NCBI GenBank assembly: GCA_913777325.1
Contig: CAJYSA010000107.1
Location: 58,064 to 122,063 of the forward strand
Reading direction: 5' to 3'
DNA length: 64,000 nt
Source of the DNA: an uncultured Sphingomonas sp.
GTDB taxonomy: Bacteria; Pseudomonadota; Alphaproteobacteria; Sphingomonadales; Sphingomonadaceae
The notes beneath the pieces are model-generated. The model was given only the letters and a program-made list of their open reading frames with translations, was not told where the DNA came from and searched no databases. Position numbers and translations under genes: made by a program. This document shows, piece by piece, positions 8,204-59,219 of this stretch (its first letter is position 1; every line of letters starts with the position of its first letter).

Positions 8204-10678
8204 ATGAGAACCGCGTATCTGATCGCCGCGGTCAGCCAACTTGCGCTGACGACCACCGCTTACGCTCAGACCGCAGCGCCAGCACCCATGGCCGCCGCGC
8301 CGGCACTAACCCGCGACGACTCCAGCCAAGTCGAAGCACAGACGCCTGAACGTACCGCCAGCGGGGATATCGTCGTCACCGCCCGACGTCGCGAGGAGCG
8401 GATCCAAGACGTACCGATCTCGATCACCGCCGTCTCTGGTGAATCGCTCATCGAACGCGGCGTCACTGATGCCTTTGGGTTACAGAGTCAGACGCCGTCG
8501 CTGTCAGTGACGGCGAACGGCGCCAGCCGCACCAGCCTTGCCTATGCGATCCGCGGCCAGCGCACCCAAGAAGCACAGTTGCTCACCGATCAACCGGTCG
8601 GCACGTATTTCGCCGAGGTGGTGATACCCCGTCCCTATGGCTTCGGAAGCAATTTTTACGACATTCAGAGCGTGCAAGTGCTCAAAGGTGTGCAAGGCAC
8701 GTTATTCGGGCGGAACATGACTGGTGGTGCGGTGCTGGTCGAACCGAATCACCCGGATCTTGACGACTATCACGCCGATATCACGGGCCAGTACGGCAAT
8801 TACAATCTCAAGGACGTGACGGGTATGATCAACATTCCCGTGGTCAAGGACGTATTCGCGTTACGCGTGGCTGGTAAATATCGTGATCGAACCGGCTTCA
8901 CTCGCGATGTCAGCACCGGGCGAGATTACGACGATCAGCATTACTACGCTTTCCGCGTCTCCGGCGAGCTTAAACTCGGCAGACTTCGGAGCTACACCGC
9001 ATTCGATTACCTGAAGGAGGATGAGCACGGCACTGGCCTCAAGCTGATCGGGTACAACCTGATCGATCCCCGCAACGGACAGCCCACCGTAATCGCGCAG
9101 CAGGCAGGCGCATCACCCTTCTTTCCGGTGGCAGCGGGTGCCCCGCCGCAGGACATCATCGGAAACTTCAATCGCGCACTCGCACTTGGTCGCTACCGAA
9201 TTGATACGGGCAAAGTCGGAACAAACCCCACACTTGATGGCAGCGCTGGCATACCGTACAATCGAATCAAGAATTACGGCGTTGTCAACAGGACGACCTT
9301 TGAAGCTGGTCCCGTTACGTTCAAGAACATTTTTGGCTACCGTAAAATAGACTACGTCAACCACACGGACTATGATGGCAGCCCTAATTCCCTTATATTC
9401 CCCGTTCAATTTTCGAATACCGAAAATTATAGCGAGGAATTTCAGATGCAGGGGACGCCGTTCGGGGACGCGTTCCAACTGACGACAGGCGGCTACTTTT
9501 TCCTTGAAAAGGGAACCGACGGCGCTTTCGCCAATACGTTTCCACAGCTAACGTCGATCGGTTACGCCTCAGGCCTTCCTGCGTTGGCTGGGGTTTTCCT
9601 GTCACAAAATGCCGATGCCTTCAATCAGAGTCAGGTTGGAAAGGGTCTGGCGCGAAGCTACGCCTTTTACTTGGCTGGTACATACAAACTTAATGACCAC
9701 TTTAAGTTGTCGGGCGGCGTACGCTACAATAACGATCTCCGCCGTGCGACAGTCTCCCCATCTCTTCCCAACCTTGTTATTCCGGGCGTTGGAAAGGGTT
9801 TTTGCCTGTTCAACGGCTTTGGGGTGGTCCCCCTCAACAATTGCTCGTTTACGAGCGACCTCAAGAACGACGCGGTCACGTGGGACGCGACGCTGCAATA
9901 TCAGACGGACGCTGACCTAAATCTCTATTTTTCCGCTCGTCGCGGCTACCGAGCGGGCGGATTCAACCTTCGTGCGCAGTCAGATCTTGCATTTCAGCCC
10001 TTCCAGCCGGAAACGGTCCAGGAATACGAAGCCGGCGTGAAGAACAGCTTCGATATTGGTGCTGCCAAGCTGACCACAAGCCTCGCTGGCTTCTTTCAGA
10101 ACTACAAGAATGTGCAGCGGCAGCAGAACATCCTTGTTGGCACGGCGATCGCAACCATCGTTAGCAACATCGGCGCCCAGCATAACTACGGCGGTGAGCT
10201 CGAAGCAAACCTTAATTTTTACAACGGATTAGCACTTAATCTCTTTTACTCGTACGTCAACATCAAGGTAGTCAAGGGGGACAATGGCACTATCGCGCTA
10301 AACTCGATCCCGAAGCATCAGATCGGTGGCGGAATCACCTATAATCGTGAGTTGGTCGGCGTCGGCGACCTGAGTGCCAATATTAACGCGACGTATCGCA
10401 GCGATACTCCACTAGACGATTTTGATCTAGGCGCGGTTCAGCCAGCTTATACGCTGGCAAACGCTAGAATTGGCATTAGCCGGATCGGCGGCAGCAACTT
10501 TGGCCTGGCGGTGTTTGCTAATAACATATTCAACACATACTATATGCAGGGTGGCCTATACCTCGCCAGCGGAGGCCCGACGGTCGGCGGCGTCACGCCG
10601 GGGGCTGGTCCAGGTTTCTCGGCATCGGCCTTCGGCGAGCCGCGCATGTATGGAATTGAGGTCTCCGCCAAGTTCTAA
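8204..10678 (+). CDS. TonB-dependent outer-membrane receptor
   Basis: An 824-residue outer-membrane active transporter powered by TonB-ExbBD. A Sec signal peptide (residues 1-22, cleavage after AYA) is followed by a TonB-box/plug region starting near DIVVTARRREERIQDVPISI (about residue 50). The plug continues past VQVLKGVQGTLFGRNMTGGAV, and a long beta-barrel ends in the aromatic terminal residue of IEVSAKF. Sphingomonads use many such receptors to take up large hydrophobic substrates. A GGGGAGGA site precedes the ATG. It stands alone with its own terminator. The 3' end has a decayed paralogue at 21848-22060. The ligand is unknown; import of the catabolic substrate is inferred. Confidence 0.93.
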   Translation: MRTAYLIAAVSQLALTTTAYAQTAAPAPMAAAPALTRDDSSQVEAQTPERTASGDIVVTARRREERIQDVPISITAVSGESLIERGVTDAFGLQSQTPSLSVTANGASRTSLAYAIRGQRTQEAQLLTDQPVGTYFAEVVIPRPYGFGSNFYDIQSVQVLKGVQGTLFGRNMTGGAVLVEPNHPDLDDYHADITGQYGNYNLKDVTGMINIPVVKDVFALRVAGKYRDRTGFTRDVSTGRDYDDQHYYAFRVSGELKLGRLRSYTAFDYLKEDEHGTGLKLIGYNLIDPRNGQPTVIAQQAGASPFFPVAAGAPPQDIIGNFNRALALGRYRIDTGKVGTNPTLDGSAGIPYNRIKNYGVVNRTTFEAGPVTFKNIFGYRKIDYVNHTDYDGSPNSLIFPVQFSNTENYSEEFQMQGTPFGDAFQLTTGGYFFLEKGTDGAFANTFPQLTSIGYASGLPALAGVFLSQNADAFNQSQVGKGLARSYAFYLAGTYKLNDHFKLSGGVRYNNDLRRATVSPSLPNLVIPGVGKGFCLFNGFGVVPLNNCSFTSDLKNDAVTWDATLQYQTDADLNLYFSARRGYRAGGFNLRAQSDLAFQPFQPETVQEYEAGVKNSFDIGAAKLTTSLAGFFQNYKNVQRQQNILVGTAIATIVSNIGAQHNYGGELEANLNFYNGLALNLFYSYVNIKVVKGDNGTIALNSIPKHQIGGGITYNRELVGVGDLSANINATYRSDTPLDDFDLGAVQPAYTLANARIGISRIGGSNFGLAVFANNIFNTYYMQGGLYLASGGPTVGGVTPGAGPGFSASAFGEPRMYGIEVSAKF

Positions 10679-12377: not shown

Positions 12378-13559
12378 TCAGGCGATCGCCTCGACGACCA
12401 TGGCGATACCCTGTCCGCCGCCGATACACATCGTGACGAGGCCGTAGCGGCCGCCGCTGCGACGCAGTTCGTACACGCATTTCACCAAGTTGATCGCACC
12501 CGTCGCGCCGATCGGGTGGCCGAGCGAGATGCCCGATCCGTTGATGTTCGTTCGGGCGGGATCGAACCCCAGTCGCACCGCGACCGCGCAGGCCTGCGCC
12601 GCGAACGCCTCGTTCGATTCGACGACGTCGATGTCGCCGACCGACACGCCCGCGCGTGCCAGCGCGATGGGGACGGCGGACACCGGCCCCAGCCCCATCA
12701 GCGCGGGCTCCACCCCCGCCAAGCCCCACCCGAGGATGCGCGCCATCGGCCGGCGCCCAGCACGCTCAGCGCCCGCCGCGGACGCGAGCACGACGGCCGC
12801 GGCGCCGTCATTAATCCCCGATGCATTGCCCGCGGTCACGCTGCCGTCCTTGGCAAATACCGGCTTGAGCGCGGCCATCTCGTCGATGCTCGCGTCAGGG
12901 CGGACATGTTCGTCCGTGTCGAAGCTGACCGTGCCACGCCGCGTCTCGACCTCAACGGCCACGATCTGCTCGCGGAAACGCCCGTCTGCGATCGCGGCCG
13001 CAGCCCGGCGGTGGCTTTCCACGGCGGCAGCGTCCTGGGTGTCGCGCTTTACGCCCTCGGCACGGGCGACGTTCTCCGCCGTCACGCCCATATGGTAGTT
13101 CTCGAAAGGATCGCTGAGCGTGCGGGTCAGCGCATCGAGCATCGGCAAGTCACCCATCTTCTGGCCGAAACGGGCCGCGGTCATGTAATGAGGCGCGCGG
13201 CTCATGCTCTCCGCGCCGCCCGCCGCCGCGACGTCGCATTCGCCGATTGCGATCGCCTGCGCGGCGGACACCACCGCCTGAAGGCCGGACCCGCACAGCC
13301 GATTGACCGTAAGCGCCGCAGCGTCGACCGGGATCCCCGCCCGCACTGCGGCTACCCGTGCGATATAGGCGTCGGCGGGCGTCGACGGGATGACATTGCC
13401 CAGCACCACCTGCCGCACATCCTCCGGCGCGACGCCAGCGCGGGCGATCGCCTCGCGGAGAACCAGCGCGCCGAGGTCGGCGGCAGGCACGTCTTTCAAC
13501 GCGCCGCCAAAGCTGCCGATTGCGGTTCGGGCGCCCGACAGGATCAGGATATCTTGCAT
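12378..13559 (-). CDS. Thiolase family protein (acetyl-CoA acyltransferase type)
   Basis: A 393-residue thiolase that cleaves 3-ketoacyl-CoA with CoA, or condenses acyl-CoAs. The nucleophilic Cys89 lies in NRLCGSGL. The C-terminal ISLGHPIGATGA supplies His, and VTMCIGGGQG supplies the second Cys. ATG 13559 is preceded by GAGGAG at good spacing, while the in-frame ATGs upstream lack one. It is transcribed alone, away from the acyl-CoA dehydrogenase operon that starts at 13744, with about 185 bases between them as a shared divergent promoter region. It probably releases acetyl- or propionyl-CoA from the island's acyl-CoA intermediates. Confidence 0.93.
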   Translation of the reverse strand: MQDILILSGARTAIGSFGGALKDVPAADLGALVLREAIARAGVAPEDVRQVVLGNVIPSTPADAYIARVAAVRAGIPVDAAALTVNRLCGSGLQAVVSAAQAIAIGECDVAAAGGAESMSRAPHYMTAARFGQKMGDLPMLDALTRTLSDPFENYHMGVTAENVARAEGVKRDTQDAAAVESHRRAAAAIADGRFREQIVAVEVETRRGTVSFDTDEHVRPDASIDEMAALKPVFAKDGSVTAGNASGINDGAAAVVLASAAGAERAGRRPMARILGWGLAGVEPALMGLGPVSAVPIALARAGVSVGDIDVVESNEAFAAQACAVAVRLGFDPARTNINGSGISLGHPIGATGAINLVKCVYELRRSGGRYGLVTMCIGGGQGIAMVVEAIA

Positions 13560-13743
13560 GGCCATACTCCTCGGCGCGAAAGACGTGGCCTGCCTAAGGA
13601 TGCTGCGGTGCAGCGACAACCGGATCGCACGAACATCACCCACGTGATGCCGCTTTCATCGCGTCTGTGATGAGCTGCTCATCGCTGTTGGTTGCGTTGC
13701 GGCCCTGGAGCAATGGAATGGCGATCTTCCCGGGGGAGTCGCG

Positions 13744-14883
13744 TTGCAGACCTTTGTTGCCGAGCCGATCGAATGGCCTGCCACCGCCCCCGACCTGCGT
13801 GCAGAGGTCCGGGCGTTGGTCGCGTCCCATGTCGATCGCAGCGACCCGCGCCGTCTCGCCAACAGTTGGGCGGTTCCCGATCCCGAGTTCAGCCGCGCGC
13901 TGGGTACGGCTGGACTGATCGGCATGACCTGGCCACGCCGGTATGGCGGGCATGACCGCTCGCCGCTGGAACGCTATGTCGTGCTCGAAGAACTGTTGGC
14001 GGCAGGTGCGCCGGTCGGCGCCCACTGGATCGCCGACCGACAGACCGGCGCGCTCCTCATCCGCTACGGCACCGAGGAGGCGCGCGAACGCTGGGTGCCC
14101 GGCATGGCGCGCGGCGAAATCTTTGCCTGCATTGGCCTGTCCGAACCCAATGCCGGTTCCGACCTCGCCTCGGTCCGCGCGACGGCGCGTCGCGAGGGCG
14201 ACGACTGGATCCTCGATGGGCAGAAGGTCTGGACCACCAACGCCCACCACGCGCACGTCATGATCGCGCTGATGCGCACCGAGGAAGGCTCGGAGCGCAA
14301 CGTCGGCCTCAGCCAGTTCCTCGTGCCGATGGACGCGCCCGGCGTCTCGATCCGTCCGATCATCGACCTGACCGGCGGGCATGACTTCAATGAGGTGTTC
14401 TTCGACCATGTCCGGCTGCCGGCCAGCGCGCTCGTCGGGGTGGAGGGCGATGGCTGGCGACAGGTGACGGCCGAACTCTCGCTGGAGCGGTCCGGCCCCG
14501 AACGGTATCTGTCGTCCACCGCGCTGCTGATCGAGCTGATCCGCGTTGCCGGGCCGCATCCCGATGCGGCGTTGCGCGCGCTCATCGGGCGGCTCGCTGC
14601 GGAAACGTGGACGCTGCGGCTCATGTCGGCTTCGATCGCGGTCAAGATCGCGCGGGGCGAGGATCCCGCGCTTGAGGCGACGATGGTAAAGGATCTGGGC
14701 AATAGCTTCGAACAGGCCATGCCCGAATTGGTGCAGGCCGCGATCGACATCGATCCCGCCGGGCCGGAGCCGATCGGCGTGATGCTGGGCCACCTGCTCC
14801 AGCTTTCCCCGTCCTTCTCGCTGCGGGGCGGCACCCGCGAGATCCTGAAGGGCATCATCGCACGCGGACTGGGCCTACGATGA
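13744..14883 (+). CDS. Acyl-CoA dehydrogenase, larger member of a pair
   Basis: A 379-residue FAD enzyme of the acyl-CoA dehydrogenase fold. The FAD/substrate segment CIGLSEPNAGSDLASVRATA lies near residue 128, DGQKVWTTNAH near 158, and the C-terminal [18 protein letters not shown] is typical. The Glu found in medium-chain enzymes just before the C-terminal glycine is not present (RGGT). Translation appears to start at TTG 13744 behind GGGGGAG, since no ATG fits. It overlaps the next dehydrogenase gene by four bases (ATGA), and such pairs form alpha2beta2 enzymes in steroid side-chain degradation. First gene of a five-gene operon. Confidence 0.9.
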   Translation: MQTFVAEPIEWPATAPDLRAEVRALVASHVDRSDPRRLANSWAVPDPEFSRALGTAGLIGMTWPRRYGGHDRSPLERYVVLEELLAAGAPVGAHWIADRQTGALLIRYGTEEARERWVPGMARGEIFACIGLSEPNAGSDLASVRATARREGDDWILDGQKVWTTNAHHAHVMIALMRTEEGSERNVGLSQFLVPMDAPGVSIRPIIDLTGGHDFNEVFFDHVRLPASALVGVEGDGWRQVTAELSLERSGPERYLSSTALLIELIRVAGPHPDAALRALIGRLAAETWTLRLMSASIAVKIARGEDPALEATMVKDLGNSFEQAMPELVQAAIDIDPAGPEPIGVMLGHLLQLSPSFSLRGGTREILKGIIARGLGLR

Positions 14884-15857
14884 ACGAGCAGCAACAGATG
14901 GTCGCCGACATGGCGAATGACCTGTTCGCCGATCTTGGCGCCAGCGCTGGCGTCGACACCGGCTGGGCCGCGATCGAGGCGGTGGGGCTGCCCTCGCTGA
15001 TGATCGCCGCGGACGACGGCGGCTTCGGTGGGGGGTGGGACGACGCGCTGGTCGTCTTTCGGCTCGCCGGCTATCATGCGCTCGCCCTGCCCGTCGTCGA
15101 GGCGACGGTTGCCGCCGCGCTGACCGGCGGCGCGATCGAGGGACGCGGCACGATCGCGTCCTCGATCGACGGAGCATTCCCCGAAGGCCGCTTCACCGGA
15201 ACGGTATCGGGTGCCGCCTGGGCGGAGGGGGCGTCCTATGTCGTGGCCCCCGCCCCGGCGCTCGTCGGCGGATCGATCCGGCTGAACCTGTCGGATGCCG
15301 ACATCGAACCATCGACCAACATCGCCGGCGAACCGCGCGCGATATTGCGGTTCGATGGCGCGGCAGCGGAGGCACTGCCGACCGACGTCTTCGCCTTAGG
15401 CGCGCTCGCCCGTGCCGCACAGATTGCCGGCGCGCTCGATGCCAGCCTTGCCATGTCGGTCGCCTATGTGAACGAGCGCAAGCAGTTCGGTCGCCCCCTC
15501 GCAAAGTTTCAGGCGGTGCAGCAGAGCCTCGCGACCTTCGCCTGCGAGGCCGCCGCCGCGAATTGCGCGGCGCTCGGCGCGGCGCAGGCGCAGGGTCGCG
15601 CAGGCGGCGACTATGCGATCGCCGCGGCAAAGCTGCGCGCCAATCGCGCGGTGGGCCTGGGCACCGCTCTGGCCCATCAGGTCCATGGCGCGATCGGCTT
15701 CACCCACGAATATCCGCTGCACACGCTCACCCGCCGGCTGTGGGCGTGGCGTTCGGAATTCGGGGGCGACAGCCACTGGTCGGCCGTGCTCGGCGAACGC
15801 ATCAGCGCGCGTGGCCCCGATCGCTTCTGGGCGGACCTGACCGCCGTTACCGACTGA
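14880..15857 (+). CDS. Acyl-CoA dehydrogenase, smaller member of a pair
   Basis: A 325-residue acyl-CoA dehydrogenase-like protein, shorter than the usual 380. The N-terminal and middle domains are reduced, while the C-terminal helical domain is recognisable: [20 protein letters not shown] near residue 196 and [20 protein letters not shown] near 265. The ATGA overlap with the preceding larger dehydrogenase implies a heteromeric complex in which the two chains share the FAD and active site. Stop is 23 bases before the thiolase at 15881. Substrate unknown; a branched or ring-bearing acyl-CoA is typical of such pairs. Confidence 0.87.
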
Positions 15858-15880: not shown

Positions 15881-17059
15881 ATGCGCGATGCCGTGATCGT
15901 CGCCACTGCCCGCACGCCGATCGGGCGTGCCGGCCGCGGCGCCCTCAATAATCTCGACGGGGCGGAGCTCGGCGGTATCGTGATCGCGGAGGCGATCCGG
16001 CGTGCCGGCTTGTCAGGAGAGGAGGTCGACGACGTGCTCCTCGGCGCCGCGCGCCTCGAAGGGCCGCAGAGCGGCAATATCGGCCGCACCTGCGCGCTAC
16101 GCGCCGGGCTGCCGGTATCGGTGCCAGGCGCTTCGCTCGACCGGAAGTGCGCTTCGGGCCTCAACACGATCGCGATCGCCGCGCAGAACGTGATGACCGG
16201 TATGGGCGAGGTGTACATCGCCGGCGGCCTCGACAGCTGTTCGCTGGCGCTGCCGGGCACACGCAGCGACCGGGCGGTCAATCCATGGCTCCAGGCGAAC
16301 ATCGCCGGCGCCTATGATACGATGATCCAGACCGCGGAAACGGTGGCCCGCCGCTATGCCATCGACCGGGAGGCGCAGGATCGCTATTCGTTCGAAAGCC
16401 AGCAGCGCACCGCAGTCGGGCAGGCTGCCGGCCGCTTCGATGCAGAGATCGTGCCGGTGACCGCAACGAAACTCCTCAAAGACAAGGCCGGCCAGGTCAC
16501 CGGCGAGGAAACGGTGACGCTCACCCGCGACGAGGGCAACCGGCCCGACACGAGCTACGAAGGTCTCGCCGCGCTGAAACCCGTGGTCGAGGGCGGCTGC
16601 ATCACCGCAGGCAACGCCAGCCAGCTGTCGGACGGTGCGAGCGTGTGTGTGGTCATGAGCGAGGACGAGGCGAGGCGCCGGTCGCTTGCCCCGCTCGGCA
16701 TTTTCCGCGGCTTTGCAGTCGCAGGCTGCGGCCCCGACGAAATGGGGATCGGCCCCGTCTTTGCCGTGCCGCGCCTGCTCGAACGCGCCGGCCTACGGAT
16801 CGACGACATCGGCTTGTGGGAGCTGAACGAAGCGTTTGCCGTGCAGGTCCTCTACTGCCGCGACACGCTCGGCATCGATCCGGCGCGGCTCAACGTCGAT
16901 GGCGGCGCGATCGCGATCGGTCATCCGTTCGGCATGTCGGGATCACGCATGACGGGGCACGCCCTGATCGAGGCGAAGCGACGCGGCGAGAAATATGCCG
17001 TCGTCACCATGTGCGCGGCAGGCGGCATGGGTGCCGCGGGTCTGTTCGAAATCGTATGA
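15881..17059 (+). CDS. Thiolase family protein
   Basis: A 392-residue thiolase. The start [15 protein letters not shown] is canonical, nucleophile Cys90 lies in [22 protein letters not shown] carries the active-site His, and [13 protein letters not shown] the second Cys. The ATG at 15881 follows a GAAGGA site; the reading frame is open upstream but that part is antisense-like noise over the dehydrogenase gene. It is the third gene of the operon starting at 13744 and overlaps the kinase-like gene by four bases. Role: thiolytic cleavage in the same beta-oxidation route. Confidence 0.94.
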
Positions 17060-18120
17060 GCATCGATCATCAACAGGCGTTCGGCGGTACCGGCGCGATC
17101 CGGACGGGGCATGACTTCGACATCCCCGCGCTCGACGTGTGGCTCACCGCCAACGTCCCCGGCTATGCCGGGCCGCTCAGCGTTCAGCAGTTCAACGGTG
17201 GCCAGTCCAATCCGACCTATCGACTCGATACTCCGGGCGCGCATTACGTCCTGCGCCGCAAGCCGCCGGGGCCGATCCTGCCAGGCGCGCATGCGATCGA
17301 GCGCGAACATCGGGTGATCTCGGCGCTTCACACCGCTGCCTTTCCGGTCGCCCGACCCTACGCTCTGTGCGAAGACGATCGCGTGATCGGCACGCCTTTC
17401 TACGTCATGGCGTTCGTGCCGGGTCGGATCTTCTGGAACTCTACGATGCCCGGGCTCGATCCGGCCGAGCGCGCCGCGCATTTCGACGCGATGAACGCGA
17501 CGATTGCCCGACTTCACACGCTGGATATCGATGCACTAGGCCTGTCGAGCTACGGCAAGCCGGGCAATTATTTCGAACGGCAGCTCGCTCGCTGGTCGCG
17601 CCAATACCGCGAGGATGCCGATGCCGGGTGCAACGAGCATCTCGACCGGCTGATCGACTGGCTGGGGGCGAACCTGCCTCCCGGGGACGAAGCGACGCTG
17701 GTGCATGGCGACCTTCGCGGCGACAATTTCATGTTCGACCCGGCCGGGCCGCGCGTCGCCGCCGTGCTCGATTGGGAATTATCGACCCTCGGCCATCCAC
17801 TCGGCGACTTCACCTATCACCTGATGATGTACCGCCTCCCACCCGACGTGCTCGGCGGCTTCGCAGGCGCCGATCTTGTCGCGTTGGGCATCCCGTCAGA
17901 AAGCGATTATATTGCCGCCTATTGCCGGCGAACCGGGCGCGACCACATCGACGCACTCGATTTCTATCTCGCCTTCAACATGTTCCGCTTTGCGGCGATC
18001 CTGCACGGCGTGAAGGGACGGCTGATCCGCGGCAATGCCGCATCCGCGACGGCGCAATCACTGGTCGAGACGCTACCCAAGCTCGCACGGATCGGCTGGG
18101 AACAGACGAGAGGTCGATGA
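17056..18120 (+). CDS. APH/phosphotransferase family protein (ACAD10/11 kinase-domain-like)
   Basis: A 354-residue aminoglycoside-phosphotransferase-fold protein. [12 protein letters not shown] (near residue 50) is the nucleotide-binding strand region. [13 protein letters not shown] near 216 is the catalytic loop with its Asp, and [15 protein letters not shown] near 237 carries the metal-binding Asp. This exact subfamily forms the N-terminal half of human ACAD10/ACAD11, where it phosphorylates the 4-hydroxyl of 4-hydroxyacyl-CoA. Here the gene directly precedes and overlaps an acyl-CoA dehydrogenase gene, in the same order as in the fused human proteins. Antibiotic resistance is unlikely. A hydroxyacyl-CoA kinase role is inferred. 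Confidence 0.88.
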
Positions 18121-19307
18121 TGAGCATGTATGAGAGCCCCGCGGTCACACTGCGCGCTGCCGAGATCGGCGACAGAGTCGAGCGGTTCGTTCGTGACGTC
18201 GTGGCACCGTACGAACGGGATCCGCGGCGCGATGCGCACGGGCCGACCGACGCGCTCGTCAATGAGTTACGCGACCACGCATGCCGAGCCGGCGTCCTCA
18301 CCCCGCATATCCTGCCCGGTGGCGACCATCTGACGCAGCGCGAAACCGCCTTCGTCCTGCGCAAGTCCGGCCTGTCCCCGCTCGGCCCCCTCGCCTGCAA
18401 CACTATGGCTCCCGACGAGGGGAACATGTTCCTTCTCGGCAAGGTCGCAACCGACGCCCAGAAGACGCGATTTCTGGCGCCCCTCGTGAACGGGATGGCA
18501 CGCTCGGCGTTTCTGATGACCGAGCCTGCAGCTGATGGCGGCGCGGGTTCGGACCCGTCGATGATGGCGACGACGGCGACGCCTTCGGGCAACGGCTGGA
18601 CGATCAATGGGCGCAAGGCGTTCATCACCGGCTATGTCGGCGCGAAGATCGGGATCGTCATGGCGCGTACTTCGGCAGAAGGCGAGCCGGTGCGCGCCAC
18701 GATGTTCCTGATCGACCTGCCCCATCCGGCAATCACGATCGAGCGCGTGCTCGACACCATCGACAGTTCGATGCCGGGCGGCCATTCGGTCCTGTCGATC
18801 ACCGACCTTCAGGTCGATGGTGAGGCCGTCCTCGGGGCGCCGGACGAAGGCCTGCGCTACGCACAGATCCGCCTCAGCCCCGCACGCCTGTCGCACTGCA
18901 TGCGCTGGCTGGGCGCGGCGACGCGCGCGAACGAGATCGCGACCGCTTATGCCCTGAAGCGTCACGCATTCGGCAAGCCACTAATCGACCATGAGGGCGT
19001 CGGCTTCATGCTGGCGGACAACCTCATCGATCTGAAACAGGCCGAGCTGATGACCGACTGGGCAGCGGGTATCCTTGATACCGGCGATCTGGGCACGGCG
19101 CAGAGTTCGATCGCGAAGGTTGCCGTGTCGGAGGCGCTGATGCGGGTCGCGGATCGCTGCGTCCAGGTGATGGGCGGCACCGGCGTGACCGGCGACACAA
19201 TCGTGGAACAGGTGTTCCGCGAAATCCGCGCTTTCCGCATCTATGACGGACCGAGCGAAGTGCATCGCTGGAGCCTGGCCAAGAAGATCAAGCGCGACGC
19301 GCGCTAG
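18120..19307 (+). CDS. Acyl-CoA dehydrogenase (ACAD11-like)
   Basis: A 395-residue acyl-CoA dehydrogenase. FLMTEPAADGGAGSDPSMM (near residue 130) is an unusual version of the FAD loop. RLSHCMRWLGAATRANEIA near 258 and the C-terminal YDGPSEVHRWSLAKKIK resemble ACAD10/ACAD11, with DGPxEVH at about 376-382, so Asp replaces the medium-chain-type Glu. ATGs at 18117 and 18120 both overlap the kinase stop; 18120 has the better spacing from GAGAGG. Together with the preceding kinase it may dehydrate a phosphorylated 4-hydroxyacyl-CoA to an enoyl-CoA. Last gene of the operon. Confidence 0.9.
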   Translation: MSMYESPAVTLRAAEIGDRVERFVRDVVAPYERDPRRDAHGPTDALVNELRDHACRAGVLTPHILPGGDHLTQRETAFVLRKSGLSPLGPLACNTMAPDEGNMFLLGKVATDAQKTRFLAPLVNGMARSAFLMTEPAADGGAGSDPSMMATTATPSGNGWTINGRKAFITGYVGAKIGIVMARTSAEGEPVRATMFLIDLPHPAITIERVLDTIDSSMPGGHSVLSITDLQVDGEAVLGAPDEGLRYAQIRLSPARLSHCMRWLGAATRANEIATAYALKRHAFGKPLIDHEGVGFMLADNLIDLKQAELMTDWAAGILDTGDLGTAQSSIAKVAVSEALMRVADRCVQVMGGTGVTGDTIVEQVFREIRAFRIYDGPSEVHRWSLAKKIKRDAR

Positions 19308-19580: not shown

Positions 19581-20609
19581 TCAGTTATCCTGTTTGCAGA
19601 GCGTGATTGCCGCCTCGGCGATCCGTTTCGCGTCTGGCGCGTATGCGGCTTCGAGCGGTTTTGAGAAAGGCACGGGCGCATAGGGAGCGCCCAGTCGCGC
19701 GACTGGGCGCTTGAGGACGCCGAACAATTCCTCGGAAAGGACCGCCGCGATCTCCGCGCCGACGCCGAACTGCGTCACCGCCTCGTGCGTGACGAGGCAC
19801 CGACCGGTCTTCCGCACCGAGGCCAGCACGGTGTCGCGGTCCCATGGCGAGATGGTTCGTAGGTCGATCACCTCGGCCGAAAAGCCGGCTGCCTGGATGG
19901 CGTCGGCCGCAGCGACCGCTTCGTTCAGGACGCGCGAATAGCTGACGATCGTGACGTCCGTGCCCTCGCGCGCGATCCGGGCCTTGCCGAGGGGCACGAT
20001 ATGGCCGGGCCGGGCCGCCTCGCCGCCGCTCCAATAGGCGGGCAGATTCTCGATGTAGAGCACGGGGTCAGGATCATCGATCGCCGCGCGCATCAGGCCA
20101 TAGGCGTCGGCGGGATTGGAGGGCGCCACCACCTTCATTCCCGCCGTGTGCGCGAACCACGCCTCCAGGTAATCGCAATGCTGGCCGCCCGAAGAGAAGC
20201 CCGTACCGGTCATCGTGCGGATGACGATCGGCACATGCGTTTGCCCACCCGACATGAAGCGCAGCTTGGCGGCGTGGTTGACGATCATATCCATCGCCAC
20301 TGTAGTAAAGTTCATCAGCATGATCTCGGCGACGGGCTTATAGCCGACGAGGCTCGCGCCGATCGCAGTGCCGATGATCGCCTGCTCGGCGATCGGTGTC
20401 GAACGGACGCGCTGATCGCCGAACCGGGTCGACAGCCCCTTGGTCACGCCGACGACACCGCCCTCTTCGGGGTCGGCGACGTCCTCGCCCAGAACCACGA
20501 CCTTCTCGTCCGCCTCCATCGCATCGGCAATAGCGGCGTTGATCGCTTGGAGGATGGTGACGGGCTTGGCCTTGGCGGCGGGCTTTTCAGCCAGATCGGT
20601 GGCGCTCAT
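19581..20609 (-). CDS. 2-oxoacid dehydrogenase E1 component, beta subunit
   Basis: A 342-residue transketolase-like beta subunit. The N-terminal linker rich in Ala/Lys is followed by TILQAINAAIADAMEADEKV, VVLGEDVADPEEGGVVGVTKGL and RSTPIAEQAIIGTAIGASL (pyrimidine-binding fold). The C-terminal transketolase domain includes THEAVTQFGVGAEIAAVL near 285. Its start overlaps the E1 alpha stop (ATGA). With E1 alpha it should form an alpha2beta2 ThDP enzyme decarboxylating a 2-oxoacid and reductively acylating the lipoyl protein downstream. It could be of pyruvate, acetoin or branched-chain type; the substrate cannot be decided here. Confidence 0.93.
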   Translation of the reverse strand: MSATDLAEKPAAKAKPVTILQAINAAIADAMEADEKVVVLGEDVADPEEGGVVGVTKGLSTRFGDQRVRSTPIAEQAIIGTAIGASLVGYKPVAEIMLMNFTTVAMDMIVNHAAKLRFMSGGQTHVPIVIRTMTGTGFSSGGQHCDYLEAWFAHTAGMKVVAPSNPADAYGLMRAAIDDPDPVLYIENLPAYWSGGEAARPGHIVPLGKARIAREGTDVTIVSYSRVLNEAVAAADAIQAAGFSAEVIDLRTISPWDRDTVLASVRKTGRCLVTHEAVTQFGVGAEIAAVLSEELFGVLKRPVARLGAPYAPVPFSKPLEAAYAPDAKRIAEAAITLCKQDN

Positions 20610-21586
20610 GCGGCAACTCCGTAGACGTCGCGAGTCAGTTCATCGAGGTCCGGGAAGGCAGAGGCGAGCGCGAACTCGACCGCTTCGTCGATCCGTGTCT
20701 CGATCTCGGCCTCTATCGCGGCCAACGTGTCTTCGGTCGCGATCCCCTCGGCAATCAGTCGGGCGCGGAACCGAGGCACGGGATCGGCCTCGATCGCGGC
20801 GGCCTTTTGCGCCTTGTCCATATAGCCATCGGCATCACCGAAGACGTGACCGTGGAAGCGGAAGGTCATCGCCTCGATCAGCGTCGGTCCCTCCCCTGCG
20901 CGCGCCCTTGCCACGGCCTCCCGCGCGGCGGCATACATCTCGATCGGGTCGTTACCATCGACGCGGATGCCCGGTATGGCGTAGCTGCCCGCCCGGTCGG
21001 CGATGCGCGGTGCCGACGTCGCCTTCTCATATGTCGTGTGTTCCCCGTACAGGTTATTCTGGCACAGGAAAATCACGGGCAGCTTCCACACCGCCGCCAG
21101 ATTCAGGCTCTCGTGGAACGCTCCGATGTTCGAGGCCCCGTCGCCGAACGTTGCGACCGCAACTCGCCCGTCGCCAGACAGCTGCGATCCCCAGCCCAAG
21201 CCGCAGGCGATCGGCATTGACGATCCGACGATGCCGGTCGTCACCATGATCCCCTTGTCGGGGTAGGTAAGGTGCATCGGCCCTCCCTTGCCCTTGCAGG
21301 TGCCATCGACACGGCCAGCGACCTCCGCCCACAGATCCTTGAGCGGCATGCCCTTGGCCAGCATGTCGTGGATGCCGCGATAGATGGTCACCAGATAATC
21401 CGCGTCGTTCAGCGCGGTCATCATCGCAGCGGGGATCACTTCCTGCCCGCGATAGCTGTAATACGGCATGACGAGGCGTCCGGTCTTGATGACCTTGCGG
21501 CTGCGTTCGTCGTTGGCCTTCAGAAGCGCGACCCGGCGATAGATTTCCAACTGCGTTTCGGCGTCGGGTGCATAATTGCTGCTCAT
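20606..21586 (-). CDS. 2-oxoacid dehydrogenase E1 component, alpha subunit (ThDP-dependent)
   Basis: A 326-residue ThDP-binding alpha subunit. The ThDP/Mg motif runs from GDGASNIGAFHESLNLAA to FLCQNN (about residues 140-170). YYSYRGQEVIPAAMMTALND near 42 and IYRGIHDMLAKGMPLKDLWAE near 68 are typical of pyruvate/acetoin-type E1 alpha. The ATG at 21586 follows AAGGGG; a TTG two codons upstream is less likely. First gene of a three-gene operon (E1 alpha, E1 beta, lipoyl protein). It may handle a 2-oxoacid or 2-hydroxy-ketone generated late in catabolism. Confidence 0.93.
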   Translation of the reverse strand: MSSNYAPDAETQLEIYRRVALLKANDERSRKVIKTGRLVMPYYSYRGQEVIPAAMMTALNDADYLVTIYRGIHDMLAKGMPLKDLWAEVAGRVDGTCKGKGGPMHLTYPDKGIMVTTGIVGSSMPIACGLGWGSQLSGDGRVAVATFGDGASNIGAFHESLNLAAVWKLPVIFLCQNNLYGEHTTYEKATSAPRIADRAGSYAIPGIRVDGNDPIEMYAAAREAVARARAGEGPTLIEAMTFRFHGHVFGDADGYMDKAQKAAAIEADPVPRFRARLIAEGIATEDTLAAIEAEIETRIDEAVEFALASAFPDLDELTRDVYGVAA

Positions 21587-21847
21587 AACCAACCCCTTGA
21601 AGTATACGGCACTGCCTCATGCGTCCGTGCGGCACGCCCCGCCATCGTCCTCGAAGGCCGCGTGGGAACGAAGCGCGTCGACACATAGCCAGCGATCGCA
21701 ACGAAACAGAGCGGCATCGACATGATCGCTTCCTGACCGGCTTTCGTCCGCTGCCCAAGGGGAAACCGCTCGACATCGCCAGTGTGATGCTTGCCACCAC
21801 GCGTCCGTCCCGAATTGCCTGCAGGGCGGTCGAGGAAAAAGCTCCAA

Positions 21848-47343: not shown

Positions 47344-48126
47344 ATGACCGAAACCGCTTCAGCGCTCGCCGACCTTCGCGGTCGTACCCTGCTCATTACC
47401 GGCGCCTCTTCGGGCCTTGGCGCGCATTTCGCGCGGGCCGCCGTAACAGCGGGCGCTGCGGTTGCGCTTGCCGCGCGGCGGGCCGACCGACTGGCCGACC
47501 TGGTCGCCGATCTGGAGCGCAACGGCGGCCGGGCCGCGGCCATCTCGATGGACGTCACCGACGAGAAATCGATCGCGGCGGGCTATGACGCGGCGGAGGC
47601 CGCGCTCGGGCCAATCGATTCGGTGCTGGCCAATGCCGGGCTCAATGTGCCGAGCAGCGCGATCGACCTCAGCGCCGACGATTTCGATCGCATCATGTCC
47701 GTGAACCTGCGCGGCGTGTTCCTGACCGCGCGAGAGGGCGCACGACGGATGATCGCGAATGGCTCCAAGGAAAAGGGTAACGGTCGCATCGTCCTGGTCG
47801 GCTCGGTCGGCTCGCACCGCGTACTGCCCGGCCTGACCGCCTATTCGACATCGAAGGCGGGCGTGTTGATGATGGGCAAGAGCCTGGCGCGCGAATGGTC
47901 GACTCGCGGCATCAACGTCAACACGATCATGCCCGGCTGGATCAAGACCGAACTCAACACCGAATGGCTTGAAAGCCCCGGCGGTGAAAAGCTGATCGCC
48001 AGCTTCCCGCGCCGCCGGGTGATGGTGCCCGCCGACCTCGACGGGATCGCGCTCTATCTGTTGTCCGACGCCTCGCCGGCGATCACCGGCGGCGGGTTCG
48101 AGCTCGATGACGGCCAGTCGCTCTAG
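47344..48126 (+). CDS. SDR family oxidoreductase
   Basis: A 260-residue classical SDR: TLLITGASSGLGAHFARAAV, ARRADRLADL, LANAGLNVPS, then VGSVGSHRVLPGLTAYSTSK (Tyr-Lys), and the closing ITGGGFELDDGQS. It is monocistronic and divergent from the epoxide hydrolase at 47228, and its stop overlaps the stop of the convergent acyl-CoA dehydrogenase (48123) by four bases. It probably acts on a secondary alcohol or ketone, possibly the diol from the hydrolase or a 3-hydroxyacyl-CoA. Confidence 0.9.
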   Translation: MTETASALADLRGRTLLITGASSGLGAHFARAAVTAGAAVALAARRADRLADLVADLERNGGRAAAISMDVTDEKSIAAGYDAAEAALGPIDSVLANAGLNVPSSAIDLSADDFDRIMSVNLRGVFLTAREGARRMIANGSKEKGNGRIVLVGSVGSHRVLPGLTAYSTSKAGVLMMGKSLAREWSTRGINVNTIMPGWIKTELNTEWLESPGGEKLIASFPRRRVMVPADLDGIALYLLSDASPAITGGGFELDDGQSL

Positions 48127-49205
48127 GCAGCCGCTTCCCAATAGGGGGCGGCGGAAACGAACCCACCCAGTCCCGCCAGGGTGTGCGTGGCGGTGGTCCC
48201 GTCGAGCAGAAGCGCGATCGCGGTCAGGCGCAGGAACCAGTGACCAACGGCGTGCTCCTCGGTCACGCCGATCCCGCCATGCAGTTGGACCGCCTGCTGC
48301 GCGACGAACTTCGTCGCCTTCGCAGCCACGATCGAAACCGCAGCCATGATCCGCGCCCGCTCGTCACCATCGGGTTCGTCCAGCGAACATGCGGCAAGGA
48401 TCGTCGCCGACCGCAATTGCTCGATCTCTACCAGCATTTCGGCCGCACGATGCTGCAGCGACTGGTTCGTCGCCAGCGGCTGGCCGAACTGGACGCGCGT
48501 CTTGATATAGTCAGTAGTAGCCTGGAAGGCACCCTCCGCGGCGCCCAGCGCTTCGGCAGCGAGAAATGTCGTCCGCCGGTCATGGGCCTGCCCGAGCAGG
48601 CGGGCGGCATCGTCGCCAGCTGCGATCCGTTCACCGTGGACCGCGTCTAGCCGCACATCGGCTGCCGATCCGCCACCGTGCAGCGGATATCTTTCTCGCG
48701 TCACACCGGGGGCATCGCCATCGATCAGGTACAGCGCATCGTTCGCCGCGACGATCAGCCGGTCCGCGCCGCCCCCGCCGCCAACGCCGTGCGCGATGCC
48801 GGTCAGCACGCCGTCGTCCGCCGTGATCCCGCAGTCGACCAGCGCAACTTCGCTCGTCCCGTCGAGCAGCCCCGGCAACGCCCGATCCCGCACCGCAGAC
48901 GGTGCTCCGGCCAGGATCGTACCGCCGCAAATCACAGTGTCGAGATAGGGGACGGACAGCAGGGTGCGCCCGATCGCCTCGCCGACGATCATCAATTCGG
49001 TGCCACCGCCACCCAATCCACCTGCCGCCTCGTCGATCAGGATCGCCGTCAGCCCCAGTTCGGCGAGGCCGCGCCATGCGTCCTCGCTCCAGCCGCCGGT
49101 GCTGCGGATCGCCGCGCGATGGGCGTCGAGGCCGCCCACATCGGCCGCAAAGCGATCGACCATGTCCTTCAACAAGCGCTGGTCATCGGTCAGTTCGAGG
49201 TTCAT
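48123..49205 (-). CDS. Acyl-CoA dehydrogenase, smaller member of a pair
   Basis: A 360-residue acyl-CoA dehydrogenase-like protein. MNLELTDDQRLLKDMVDRFA and LAELGLTAILIDEAAGGLGG are the N-terminal domain. The middle domain is reduced (no clear SEPxAGSD loop). The C-terminal domain has TDYIKTRVQFGQPLATNQSL and LHGGIGVTEEHAVGHWFLRL. It lies 3 bases after the larger dehydrogenase (49209-50357), and both are probably subunits of one alpha2beta2 enzyme. Operon order is crotonase, larger subunit, smaller subunit. Confidence 0.9.
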   Translation of the reverse strand: MNLELTDDQRLLKDMVDRFAADVGGLDAHRAAIRSTGGWSEDAWRGLAELGLTAILIDEAAGGLGGGGTELMIVGEAIGRTLLSVPYLDTVICGGTILAGAPSAVRDRALPGLLDGTSEVALVDCGITADDGVLTGIAHGVGGGGGADRLIVAANDALYLIDGDAPGVTRERYPLHGGGSAADVRLDAVHGERIAAGDDAARLLGQAHDRRTTFLAAEALGAAEGAFQATTDYIKTRVQFGQPLATNQSLQHRAAEMLVEIEQLRSATILAACSLDEPDGDERARIMAAVSIVAAKATKFVAQQAVQLHGGIGVTEEHAVGHWFLRLTAIALLLDGTTATHTLAGLGGFVSAAPYWEAAA

Positions 49206-49208
49206 CGG

Positions 49209-50357
49209 TCAGAGCCCCAGCATCGTCTTGGCAACGATGGTCTTCTGCACTTCGCTGGCCCCGCCATAGATGGAGGCCGCGCGCAGGATCGCATAGTTGG
49301 GCAGCGCCGTTCCTACGGGATCGACGGCCGCCTCGGGCCCGGCGGCCTCGGCGCGCAGTGCCGCTGGGCCGATCGTCTGTACCAGCAATTCGGACGCCGC
49401 CTGTCGCAGTTCGACGCCTTTCAGCTTCAGCACCGACGATCGCGGATCAGGGCCCTCGGAACGGCGCTGCGCGTCGAGAATACGAAGCTGCGTCACTTCA
49501 AGCATCCGCAACTCCGCCTCGATTCCGGCCGCCCGGGCCAGTACGCCAGCATCGCTTCCAGCCTGCGCCTTGATCCGTCGCAGAATATGCTTGGTCATCC
49601 CGATCCGCGCGATATTGGTCCGCTCGCTCGACAACAGCGCCTTGGTGACGCTCCATCCGTCGTTCTCCGCGCCGACCAGACAATCGGCCGGCACCCGCAC
49701 TTCGTCCAGGAAGACCTCGTTCACCTCGTGCCGGCCGTCGATGGTGATGATCGGACGGATCGTCACGCCCGGCAGGCGCAGGTCGATCAACAGAAACGAC
49801 AGGCCCGCCTGCTTCTTGGGCGCCGCGGGATCGGTGCGAACCAGCGTGAACATCCAGTCCGCATGGTGCGCCATCCCCTGCCAGATCTTGTGGCCCGTCA
49901 CAATATAATCGTCGCCATCCCGAACCGCGCGGGTGCGGACGGCAGCCAGGTCGGATCCCGCGCCCGGTTCCGAAAAGCCCTGGCACCACCAGATGTCGAG
50001 ATTGGCGGTCGCCGGCAGGAACCGGGCCTTCTGGGCGGGCGTACCGTAGGCGATCAGCACCGGCCCCAGCATCGCGACATTGAAGGACACCGGCTCGGGT
50101 GCCGGCGCCTGATGCAGCTCGTCGAGGAAGATCGCGCGCTCGACCGGTCCCCAGCCCGGCCCGCCATGTTCGCGCGGCCAGGCGGGCGTCGCCCAGCCGC
50201 GTGCGTTGAGCGCGCGCTGCCACGCAACCACCTCGTCACGGTTCGGCAAACGCCCGTCCAACATCTTGCGATGCGTCGCGGGATCGAGCTCGGCCCGGAT
50301 GAAGTCACGTACCTCGCGGCGGAACGCGACCTCCTCGACCGTCGGGCGCAGATCCAT
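49209..50357 (-). CDS. Acyl-CoA dehydrogenase, larger member of a pair
   Basis: A 382-residue acyl-CoA dehydrogenase with a full set of FAD features: WWCQGFSEPGAGSDLAAVRT near residue 128, GHKIWQGMAHHADWMF near 160, DGRHEVNEVFLDEVRVPADC near 205 and the C-terminal YGGASEVQKTIVAKTMLGL. The Glu used by medium-chain enzymes at the C-terminal loop is absent (YGGA). It starts 3 bases after the crotonase stop and is followed by the smaller dehydrogenase after 3 bases. It probably dehydrogenates a bulky acyl-CoA with electrons passed to EtfAB. Confidence 0.92.
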   Translation of the reverse strand: MDLRPTVEEVAFRREVRDFIRAELDPATHRKMLDGRLPNRDEVVAWQRALNARGWATPAWPREHGGPGWGPVERAIFLDELHQAPAPEPVSFNVAMLGPVLIAYGTPAQKARFLPATANLDIWWCQGFSEPGAGSDLAAVRTRAVRDGDDYIVTGHKIWQGMAHHADWMFTLVRTDPAAPKKQAGLSFLLIDLRLPGVTIRPIITIDGRHEVNEVFLDEVRVPADCLVGAENDGWSVTKALLSSERTNIARIGMTKHILRRIKAQAGSDAGVLARAAGIEAELRMLEVTQLRILDAQRRSEGPDPRSSVLKLKGVELRQAASELLVQTIGPAALRAEAAGPEAAVDPVGTALPNYAILRAASIYGGASEVQKTIVAKTMLGL

Positions 50358-56949: not shown

Positions 56950-58035
56950 ATGGACGATCTTTCCGATATCGACGCCCTCAAGACGAGCTTCCGCGAGGTG
57001 CTGGACACCGAGGCCGGGACCGACTGGGCCTTGCGGCATTTCGATCACGTCCACGGGATGTCCCGGCCCCTGTGGGACACGATCGTCGGGCTTGGGTGGA
57101 CCGCTCTGGCGGTGCCGGAGGCGCACGGGGGCCTCGGCCTGGGCATCGATGCGCTGGTCGCCCTGTACGAGGAAGCGGGCCGCGTCGTCGCGCCCTTGCC
57201 GCTCCTGTCCACGATGCTGGCGGCCGATGCGATCGCCCGCGGCGCCGGCGCTGTGCAGCAGGCCGACTGGCTGCCGATGATCGCCGGCGGCACGGTCGTC
57301 GCGGTCGAGCCCCCCGCCCCGCTTCACTCGCCCACTCTGACGATCGCGCGAACCGGCGATGGCTGGCGCCTGACCGGAACGACGCGCATCCTCGATGCGG
57401 CGGATGCCGATCGCCTGCTCCATCTGGCGATCGCGACCGACGGCACCCTGCACCGCCTGCTGCTGGTGGCGGACGGCGCGGAGCGACAGCCTCTCTGGGA
57501 TCACGGCCACACGCTGTCCGACATACACTATCACGATCGGCTCGTCCCGGATGACGCCGTCTTCCCGAGCTCTCCCGAACTCGAGGACGCGCTCGCCGTC
57601 CATGCCGCCCTCGCGCTTGCGGCCGAGGCGGTGGGCGGGTGCGAGGGTCTACTGCCGCTGACGATCGAGTATCTCAAGACACGGCACCAGTTCGGCAAGC
57701 CGATCGGATCGTTCCAGGCGCTGAAACACCGGATCGCCGACCACCGCACGCGGCTGGAGGGGGACCGGCTGCTGCTCGCCGCAGCTACCGCGCTCGCCGT
57801 CGCAGGCGATCCCCGTGGGCCCAGCGAAGCCTCCGCCGCGAAGGCGCTGGCCTGCGCCAATTACGCCGAGCTAGCACGCGATGCGATCCAGCTGCACGGT
57901 GGCATCGGCTTCACCGCCGAGCACGCCTGCCACCTGTTCCTTAAGCGCGCACGGCTGATCGAAACGCTGTTCGGCGATGCGCCGGTGCATCTCGCCCGTG
58001 CTGTCCGCGCCCTCGACTTGGAGATTGCGGCATGA
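56950..58035 (+). CDS. Acyl-CoA dehydrogenase, smaller member of a pair
   Basis: A 361-residue acyl-CoA dehydrogenase-like protein with a reduced middle domain. IVGLGWTALAVPEAHGGLGL starts the N-terminal helices, TIEYLKTRHQFGKPIGSFQA (near 240) and IQLHGGIGFTAEHACHLFLK are the C-terminal part. It overlaps the larger dehydrogenase gene at 58032 by four bases (ATGA), here with the smaller chain first. No SEPxAGSD loop is present, so the FAD is likely held mostly by the partner. ATG 56950 gives the natural start; the open frame upstream covers the thioesterase gene and is not coding. Confidence 0.9.
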   Translation: MDDLSDIDALKTSFREVLDTEAGTDWALRHFDHVHGMSRPLWDTIVGLGWTALAVPEAHGGLGLGIDALVALYEEAGRVVAPLPLLSTMLAADAIARGAGAVQQADWLPMIAGGTVVAVEPPAPLHSPTLTIARTGDGWRLTGTTRILDAADADRLLHLAIATDGTLHRLLLVADGAERQPLWDHGHTLSDIHYHDRLVPDDAVFPSSPELEDALAVHAALALAAEAVGGCEGLLPLTIEYLKTRHQFGKPIGSFQALKHRIADHRTRLEGDRLLLAAATALAVAGDPRGPSEASAAKALACANYAELARDAIQLHGGIGFTAEHACHLFLKRARLIETLFGDAPVHLARAVRALDLEIAA

Positions 58036-59219
58036 CCAGCCCGCTAGCCGCCGCCCACGATCTCGACTCGTTCCGCGCCGCCATTCGCGATTGGCTTCCC
58101 GGCGCCATTCCCGCCGACTGGAAAGGGCGGATCCGCCGCGAGTCCGAGGAAGGCTATCTTGCCGTGCAACGCGAATGGTATCGGGCACAGACTGAGGCCG
58201 GGCTTGCCACGGCGCACTGGCCGAGAGACTGGGGCGGTGCCGACCTGTCGTTGGCGGCGCAGGTCGTCCTCTACGAAGAAATGGCACGCGCCGACGCGCC
58301 CAATACCGATCTGTTCACTGTATCGCTCTATCATATGCCCGCGACGCTGTTTGCCTATGGCACTCCGGAGCAGCGGGCGCGGTATCTGGAGGGCGTCCGG
58401 ACCGGCGGCGACATCTGGTGCCAGGGATTTTCAGAGCCAGGTGCAGGCTCAGACCTCGCCTCGCTGCGCACTCGCGCGGATCGTCGGGGCGACGTCTATG
58501 TCGTCAACGGACAGAAGATCTGGTCGTCTTATGGCGTCTTTGCCAATTATTGCCTGCTTCTGGCGCGGACGAATCAGGAGGCTGCGCGCAAACATGACGG
58601 CATTTCCTATTTCATTCTCGACATGAAATCGCCGGGGCTAACGGTCAAGCCGATACGCCAAATTACGGGCGAGGCCGAATTCGCCGAGATATTCTTCGAC
58701 GATGTCGAGATTCCGGTCGAGAACCTGATCGGTGCCGAGAACGAGGGTTGGCGCATCGCGCAGTCGACCCTGACGGCAGAGCGCGGGCTGCTGATCTTCG
58801 AGAACAGCGAACGCCTGGTCCACGCCGTCCGACGCGACGCTGCCCGCTATCGCGATCTTTTCGCGCGCGACCCTGCCAAAGCCGCGGCCTTCGCGGGCTT
58901 CTATCCTCGCGTGCGCGCGCTCAAGCACATGGTCGGCGAATTGCTGGCCCAGCTCGAGCGGGATCCCCATGCGGGGGGCGAGATCGCCACCTATATCAAA
59001 TTGTACTGGGCGACCCTGCTCCAAGACTATAACGGCTTCACCGCCCGCCTCGACGGGCTCGACGCGCTGATCGAAGCCGAGCCACTGCGCTGCGCCGGCC
59101 AGACACCCGACGATACCATGTACGCCTTTCTCAAGAGCTACAGCTGGACGGTCGCCGGGGGCAGCAACGAGATCATGCGGAACGTGATCGCCGAACGACT
59201 TCTGGGCCTGCCAAGATGA
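58032..59219 (+). CDS. Acyl-CoA dehydrogenase, larger member of a pair
   Basis: A 395-residue acyl-CoA dehydrogenase. WCQGFSEPGAGSDLASLRTR (near residue 130), NGQKIWSSYGVFANYCLLLA (near 158), FAEIFFDDVEIPVENLIGAE (near 217) and the C-terminal GGSNEIMRNVIAERLLGL are diagnostic. The C-terminal Glu of medium-chain enzymes is lacking (AGGS). It pairs with the gene at 56950. This arrangement matches the FadE26-27/28-29 type alpha2beta2 dehydrogenases of steroid side-chain or ring degradation, though the substrate may differ. Confidence 0.92.
   Translation: MTSPLAAAHDLDSFRAAIRDWLPGAIPADWKGRIRRESEEGYLAVQREWYRAQTEAGLATAHWPRDWGGADLSLAAQVVLYEEMARADAPNTDLFTVSLYHMPATLFAYGTPEQRARYLEGVRTGGDIWCQGFSEPGAGSDLASLRTRADRRGDVYVVNGQKIWSSYGVFANYCLLLARTNQEAARKHDGISYFILDMKSPGLTVKPIRQITGEAEFAEIFFDDVEIPVENLIGAENEGWRIAQSTLTAERGLLIFENSERLVHAVRRDAARYRDLFARDPAKAAAFAGFYPRVRALKHMVGELLAQLERDPHAGGEIATYIKLYWATLLQDYNGFTARLDGLDALIEAEPLRCAGQTPDDTMYAFLKSYSWTVAGGSNEIMRNVIAERLLGLPR

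Follow-up and report, generated by a model that had tools for sequence, protein, structure and literature searches.

The window, a stretch of 64,000 nucleotides from an uncultured Sphingomonas sp. (contig CAJYSA010000107.1 of assembly GCA_913777325.1), carries two overlapping genes on its forward strand, one for a kinase of the aminoglycoside phosphotransferase (APH) fold and one for an acyl-CoA dehydrogenase (ACAD). The kinase gene lies at 17056..18120 (354 aa) and the ACAD gene at 18117..19307, with stop and start overlapping in the letters ATGA; the ACAD reading frame starts at ATG 18117 or 18120 and ends at 19307. A preliminary description of the window had placed a kinase and then a dehydrogenase in overlapping genes at 17056-19307, and its coordinates proved exact. 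The two genes probably encode a cognate pair, in which ATP-dependent phosphorylation of a hydroxyacyl-CoA, most likely at C4, would be followed by elimination of the phosphate by the dehydrogenase. The first product is a predicted hydroxyacyl-CoA kinase of the ACAD10/11 kind, the second a predicted phosphate-eliminating ACAD of the HCMR/Asp kind from a sister branch to ACAD11, and both genes close a same-strand run within what looks like a catabolic island.

The kinase matches the Pfam APH model with an E-value of 2.7e-53. A sequence search of the Protein Data Bank (PDB) returned 3dxp first (391 bits) and mouse ACAD11 second (257 bits, E 2.4e-75), the identities being 52% (51% in Foldseek) and 41%, respectively. 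The nearest solved kinase, 3dxp, comes from Ralstonia eutropha and was named putative by its depositors. The kinase does not score as a resistance enzyme and falls far under the resistance-model cut-offs, with 25.7 bits to the APH(3') model against a cut-off of 205. Two genes of the same kind at other loci (L039 and L040) are labelled 'aminoglycoside phosphotransferase' in public records. The kinase domain of mouse ACAD11 is reported to use D220 and N225, while R86 and R176 contact CoA in modelling (PMC12440821). The corresponding residues on the + strand of the window are the catalytic loop from D219 to N224 (17710..17727), R83 (17302..17304) and R175 (17578..17580). In an alignment of 23 kinases D219, N224, R83 and R175 were conserved in all 23, and the active site of the window kinase is intact in these residues.

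The dehydrogenase matches Pfam Acyl-CoA_dh_1 (E 8.9e-38), and its sequence search of the PDB returned 4hr3 first (181 bits) and mouse ACAD11 second (164 bits, E 5.1e-47). In the ACAD domain of mouse ACAD11 the catalytic Asp is D753, and R626, H634 and R637 of the HCMR motif face the phosphate, while R631 is conserved across ACADs; nonconservative substitutions caused the greatest disruption at R626, H634 and R637, and R637K impaired turnover in part only (PMC12440821). The segment RLSPARLSHCMR of the window (18870..18905, +) supplies the equivalents R251, R256, H259 and R262 of mouse R626, R631, H634 and R637. The motif DGPSEVH (19245..19265, +), an instance of the ACAD11-type DGPxEVH that the preliminary description had recognized, supplies D376 (codon 19245-19247) as the equivalent of D753, in place of the usual Glu of ACADs. 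The set of R, R, H, R and D was found in 38/38 kin dehydrogenases of one alignment, namely 37 window-like enzymes and the ACAD on contig C92 of the same genome, whereas the HCMR/Asp set was missing from all seven ordinary ACADs aligned with them. As these loci were gathered by whole-protein similarity with no motif filter, this alignment gives the fair motif count. A separate scan of named genomes, of which the best 80 loci were kept (mostly Alpha- and Betaproteobacteria, few others), gave HCMR in 80/80 and DGxxEVH in 79/80, the exception L145 being an incomplete sequence; that count is partly built in because the search patterns included HCMR. With these residues intact, the type of function proposed earlier, a kinase with a predicted phosphate-eliminating ACAD, is retained. 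The kinase would phosphorylate the hydroxyl of an acyl-CoA with ATP, most likely at C4 (gamma). D376 of the ACAD-fold enzyme would then take a proton while R251, H259 and R262 hold the phosphate, FAD would act transiently, and elimination of phosphate would give a 2-enoyl-CoA that could re-enter beta-oxidation.

A split bacterial form of such a system is already known in LvaA/LvaC of Pseudomonas putida, in which the kinase makes a 4-phosphoacyl-CoA and the ACAD eliminates the phosphate (PMC12440821, PMC11342911), and Burkholderia orthologues of LvaA and LvaC replace the ACAD10 domains in vitro (PMC11342911). The window pair resembles LvaA/LvaC in that kinase and ACAD are on separate genes. It resembles mammalian ACAD10 and ACAD11 in that both domains are homologous in sequence and fold and the reported active-site residues are kept; the mammalian proteins are single fused chains, whereas the window has two genes, with the kinase as similar to mouse ACAD11 as given above and the ACAD 31% identical to it. 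LvaC, at 62% and 56% identity to the ACAD domains of ACAD10 and ACAD11 (PMC11342911), groups with them by these published values, while the window ACAD belongs to a sister branch and has other neighbours. The two-enzyme logic would fit a variant of the levulinate/4-hydroxyvalerate (lva) system acting on short 4-hydroxy acids (PMC12440821, PMC11342911), but such a variant appears unlikely given the much lower identity of the window ACAD to mouse ACAD11 and its neighbours, a two-subunit ACAD and a thiolase. The window pair is a member of the known broad family of LvaA/LvaC and ACAD10/11 and is predicted to act in the same way, but its ACAD comes from a branch for which no study was found in the literature searched.

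Branch membership was taken from an ACAD tree of 38 sequences that included five ordinary ACADs and left out ACAD10 and LvaC. The HCMR/Asp ACADs, together with two Pseudomonas HAMR enzymes, separate from the five ordinary ACADs with an ingroup support of 85, and this ingroup splits into two branches with support of 100 each. One branch holds mouse ACAD11, the C92 ACAD of the same genome (support 99) and Pseudomonas enzymes; the sister branch, which is widespread in Alpha- and Betaproteobacteria, holds the window ACAD, a second ACAD of the same genome on contig C106 (76% identical to the window ACAD) and 23 other sampled relatives. The C92 ACAD shares 55% identity with mouse ACAD11, to which it scores 435 bits by phmmer, against 164 bits for the window ACAD. 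The kinases diverge less, with 41% (window) and 38% (C92) identity to mouse ACAD11 and 257 and 230 bits. The 15 sampled kinases that accompany sister-branch ACADs form a single clade (support 100), and the deep nodes of the kinase tree, which relate the kinases of window, ACAD11 and C92, have support of 75-86 only. Orthology of the window ACAD to ACAD10/11 is ruled out by its sister-branch placement and its 31% identity, and the description of the locus as an ACAD10/ACAD11 split in two must be given up; within this genome it is the C92 ACAD that falls inside the ACAD11 branch. The C92 pair (locus L006, 7896-10108) likewise consists of adjoining kinase and ACAD genes with the same motifs, differing from the window pair in that the ACAD comes before the kinase; it may be a general-purpose set. 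The C106 pair (locus L005, 4198-7180) is a second sister-branch pair, in which an enoyl-CoA-hydratase-like gene separates the ACAD from the kinase.

The deep split between the two branches, with full support on both sides, also bears on the most serious alternative, in which the same kinase-elimination chemistry is directed at a hydroxyl away from C4 of the chain, such as a ring, tertiary or 5-hydroxy group on the acyl-CoA of a terpenoid or steroid; membership of the sister branch would then indicate another class of substrate. The presence of KstD-like, Rieske, P450 and paired ACAD genes in the island agrees with this. The phosphate-pocket residues are, however, identical to those of ACAD11, and a similar geometry around C4 is therefore argued; some relatives, moreover, adjoin genes for beta-oxidation in stretches where no gene for ring degradation is seen. 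This alternative is regarded as possible but the less probable of the two, and it overlaps the preferred explanation, a cognate pair for which C4 is merely the likeliest position. As tentatively may it be proposed that the sister branch is a second branch of phosphate-eliminating ACADs with a kinase clade of its own, which removes the hydroxyl from bulky (terpenoid, steroid or polycyclic) hydroxyacyl-CoAs.

Several observations weigh against a cognate pair acting at C4, beginning with the low identity of the window ACAD (31%) to mouse ACAD11. For the predicted kinase model (pLDDT 89.1; best Foldseek match 3dxp) mouse ACAD11 ranks just sixth in Foldseek, behind three chains of 25-hydroxysteroid kinase (25-HSK) at ranks 3-5. 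For the predicted ACAD model (pLDDT 89.7) the four leading matches are 4hr3, human ACAD11 (two matches) and mouse ACAD11, with ordinary ACADs close behind at equal TM-scores. Fold alone is therefore weak evidence here, and sequence and residues are the stronger. The literature searched, in which few subscription journals were covered, yielded no characterised member of the sister branch, and the papers relevant by title and abstract were the mammalian and lva ones only. Sequence does not tell where the hydroxyl lies, nor do the contents of the island fix its substrate. Among the best 80 named loci, 39 lack a kinase homologue in the stretch examined around the ACAD (12 end less than 3 kb away on one side), and linkage is therefore not obligatory. 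Of 42 loci without a kinase by BLAST, 24 were given a genome search, in which 22 of 23 genomes had a kinase homologue somewhere and one had none at E <= 1e-60.

The ranking of the 25-HSK chains above mouse ACAD11 would suit a kinase whose substrate is a free alcohol of the steroid or terpenoid type, as in Sterolibacterium, with the ACAD unconnected to it. The 25-HSK (9fsg) shares the APH-like fold, and in sterol degradation it phosphorylates an alcohol before elimination, working on the free sterol with no CoA (PMC8449060). The window kinase, however, scores 35 bits to 25-HSK in the PDB sequence search against 257 bits to mouse ACAD11, by which 25-HSK is ruled out as its closest sequence relative; the two modelled CoA-contact arginines occur in all 23 aligned kinases, and the kinase gene overlaps that of an HCMR ACAD. 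A free-alcohol kinase is thereby rendered highly improbable.

The cognate-pair reading was further weighed against gene linkage. By profile search, a kinase homologue lies on the same strand within 5 kb in 41/80 of the best named loci and on the opposite strand in none; by BLAST, kinase and ACAD occur together in 38/80. Both folds are common and 39 of the 80 ACADs have no adjoining kinase, as expected if an ordinary ACAD happened to stand next to an unrelated APH-fold kinase. Such a coincidence is nonetheless very hard to credit in view of this same-strand bias, the cognate kinase clade, and a catalytic Asp and phosphate-pocket residues absent from the seven ordinary ACADs. Among same-genus genomes, close kinases (at least 435 bits, a threshold picked after viewing the list) occur in 16/24 with the ACAD (own genome included) and in 0/37 without it (Fisher p 3.6e-9). 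Almost every genome of the genus has lower-scoring kinases, which presumably are a general set, and kinases scoring close to the threshold were found in other families of the order without a sister-branch ACAD. Counting both kinds, some kinase homologue is present in 77/100 relatives. An ACAD match at E <= 1e-60 occurs in 27/100 relatives (own genome included), 25 of these at 70% identity or more. The ACAD also has matches in 622 plasmid records (E <= 1e-30), of which 90 lie at 60-80% identity. Sphingobium sp. 15-1 (loci L111/L137) has eight kinase homologues, the highest number of the genomes examined.

The order of the two genes, which the preliminary description had noted as that of the domains of human ACAD11, is not a conserved feature. 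Among the best 80 named loci BLAST gave the ACAD before the kinase in 35/38 and the kinase first in 3/38 (L073, L088, L095), the overlapping genes of L076 and L090 counting as ACAD-first by their coordinates. The profile search gave the kinase downstream in 36 of 41 and upstream in five, the two extra cases being distant kinases of L148 and L152. Of 23 loci with both genes in another set, the kinase leads in three (the window, L044 and L045) and the ACAD in 20. These sets overlap, L073 being from the genome of L045, and L079 and L127 repeating two other genomes. Kinase-first order as support for ACAD11 likeness was rejected on these counts. Each of the two distant kinases (~160 bits by profile; 8940-9914 in L148) directly precedes a more distant ACAD of the branch, in Afipia massiliensis and in a metagenome-assembled genome of Acetobacteraceae, respectively. 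In Pseudomonas (G100-G248) an ACAD11-type dehydrogenase was found in 57/59 genomes and a kinase homologue in 146/149. No kinase homologue was found by profile in six stretches of 9-19 kb around such dehydrogenases, and kinase and dehydrogenase can therefore be unlinked. The lva operon arrangement was not recognised in the Pseudomonas stretches examined, and another kinase-ACAD set occurs in Pseudomonas genomes (L220, L221).

Should the cognate-pair reading hold, bacteria possess at least two parallel branches of a pair, the mammalian forms of which were not explained until 2024-2025 (PMC11342911, PMC12440821), one perhaps general-purpose, as the C92 pair, and the other accessory, here in a catabolic island. 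It would offer a comparative system for what determines the substrate range of ACAD10/11, as well as a way to study how sphingomonads dispose of hydroxylated acids that obstruct beta-oxidation. If the bulky-substrate proposal is also true, ATP-driven acyl-CoA dehydration extends from chain fatty acids to ring compounds. The cognate-pair reading would further suggest that 'aminoglycoside phosphotransferase' genes adjoining such ACADs are catabolic and not for resistance.

The pair closes a run of five + strand genes that looks like one operon, in keeping with the earlier placement of a thiolase and a dehydrogenase pair in the same operon. Upstream of the pair lie subunit 1 (13744..14883, with Pfam N and middle domains) and subunit 2 (14880..15857, with the Pfam C-terminal domain) of what is likely a two-subunit ACAD, followed by a thiolase (acetyl-CoA C-acyltransferase; 15881..17059), which is PRK07108-like with a score under that model's own cut-off. 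ATGA overlaps recur at the thiolase/kinase junction (17056/17059) and between the first two ACAD genes (14880/14883). Other steps in the beta-oxidation of the bulky substrate handled by the pair would fall to the two-subunit ACAD and the thiolase. All five genes are conserved at 77-94% identity in two other genomes, G038 and G013: the kinase at 89%, the ACAD at 93-94%, subunit 1 at 92% in both, and subunit 2 at 79% and 77%, respectively. As the orthologues keep order and strand there, the kinase/ACAD arrangement is not due to chance. Among the loci compared, the complete run occurs only in the window, G038 and G013. A further thiolase gene (12378-13643, -) is divergent to the run, and its orthologue was not found in the G013 contig, which spans the part of the island from the sulfotransferase to the electron-transfer flavoprotein (ETF) genes. 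Directly after the run, on the opposite strand, 2-oxoacid dehydrogenase E1 alpha/beta genes (19581-21592) share 95-96% identity with their counterparts in G038 and G013 and are among the best conserved genes of the island.

The island itself looks catabolic from its gene content, as had been proposed, and its contents would fit a steroid- or terpenoid-like substrate, though no single gene fixes it. It includes a KstD-like flavoprotein (740.8 bits, under the model cut-off of 789), a Rieske oxygenase, two P450s, further paired ACADs, CoA ligases and ETF genes. Paired ACAD genes are typical of enzymes for bulky substrates; two more adjacent pairs lie at 48123-50357 and 56950-59219. Searches of island proteins against NCBIfam (10) and Pfam (10 + 10, some repeated) returned family names only and no pointer to the substrate, and no described cluster fitting the island was found in the literature searched. 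G038, from a related species, has 44/48 of the listed island genes, the remaining four lying beyond its contig end, at identities of 72-96% with the gene for the old yellow enzyme (OYE) left out, and its gene order is that of the window except for a TonB-receptor gene. In the window that gene (8204-10678) has CysQ on one side and the divergent thiolase on the other, whereas its neighbours in G038 and G013 are the E1 and GMC genes; it has moved within an otherwise collinear island. The segment 61-7644 holds genes for a sulfotransferase (PF13469), a DUF1214 protein, a regulator, CysD, CysNC and an inositol-phosphatase/CysQ-like protein, the Cys names being assigned by reading the sequences. These six genes possibly amount to a complete set for making 3'-phosphoadenosine 5'-phosphosulfate (PAPS) and for sulfation beside the catabolic genes, and all six are present in G013 at 71-97% identity.

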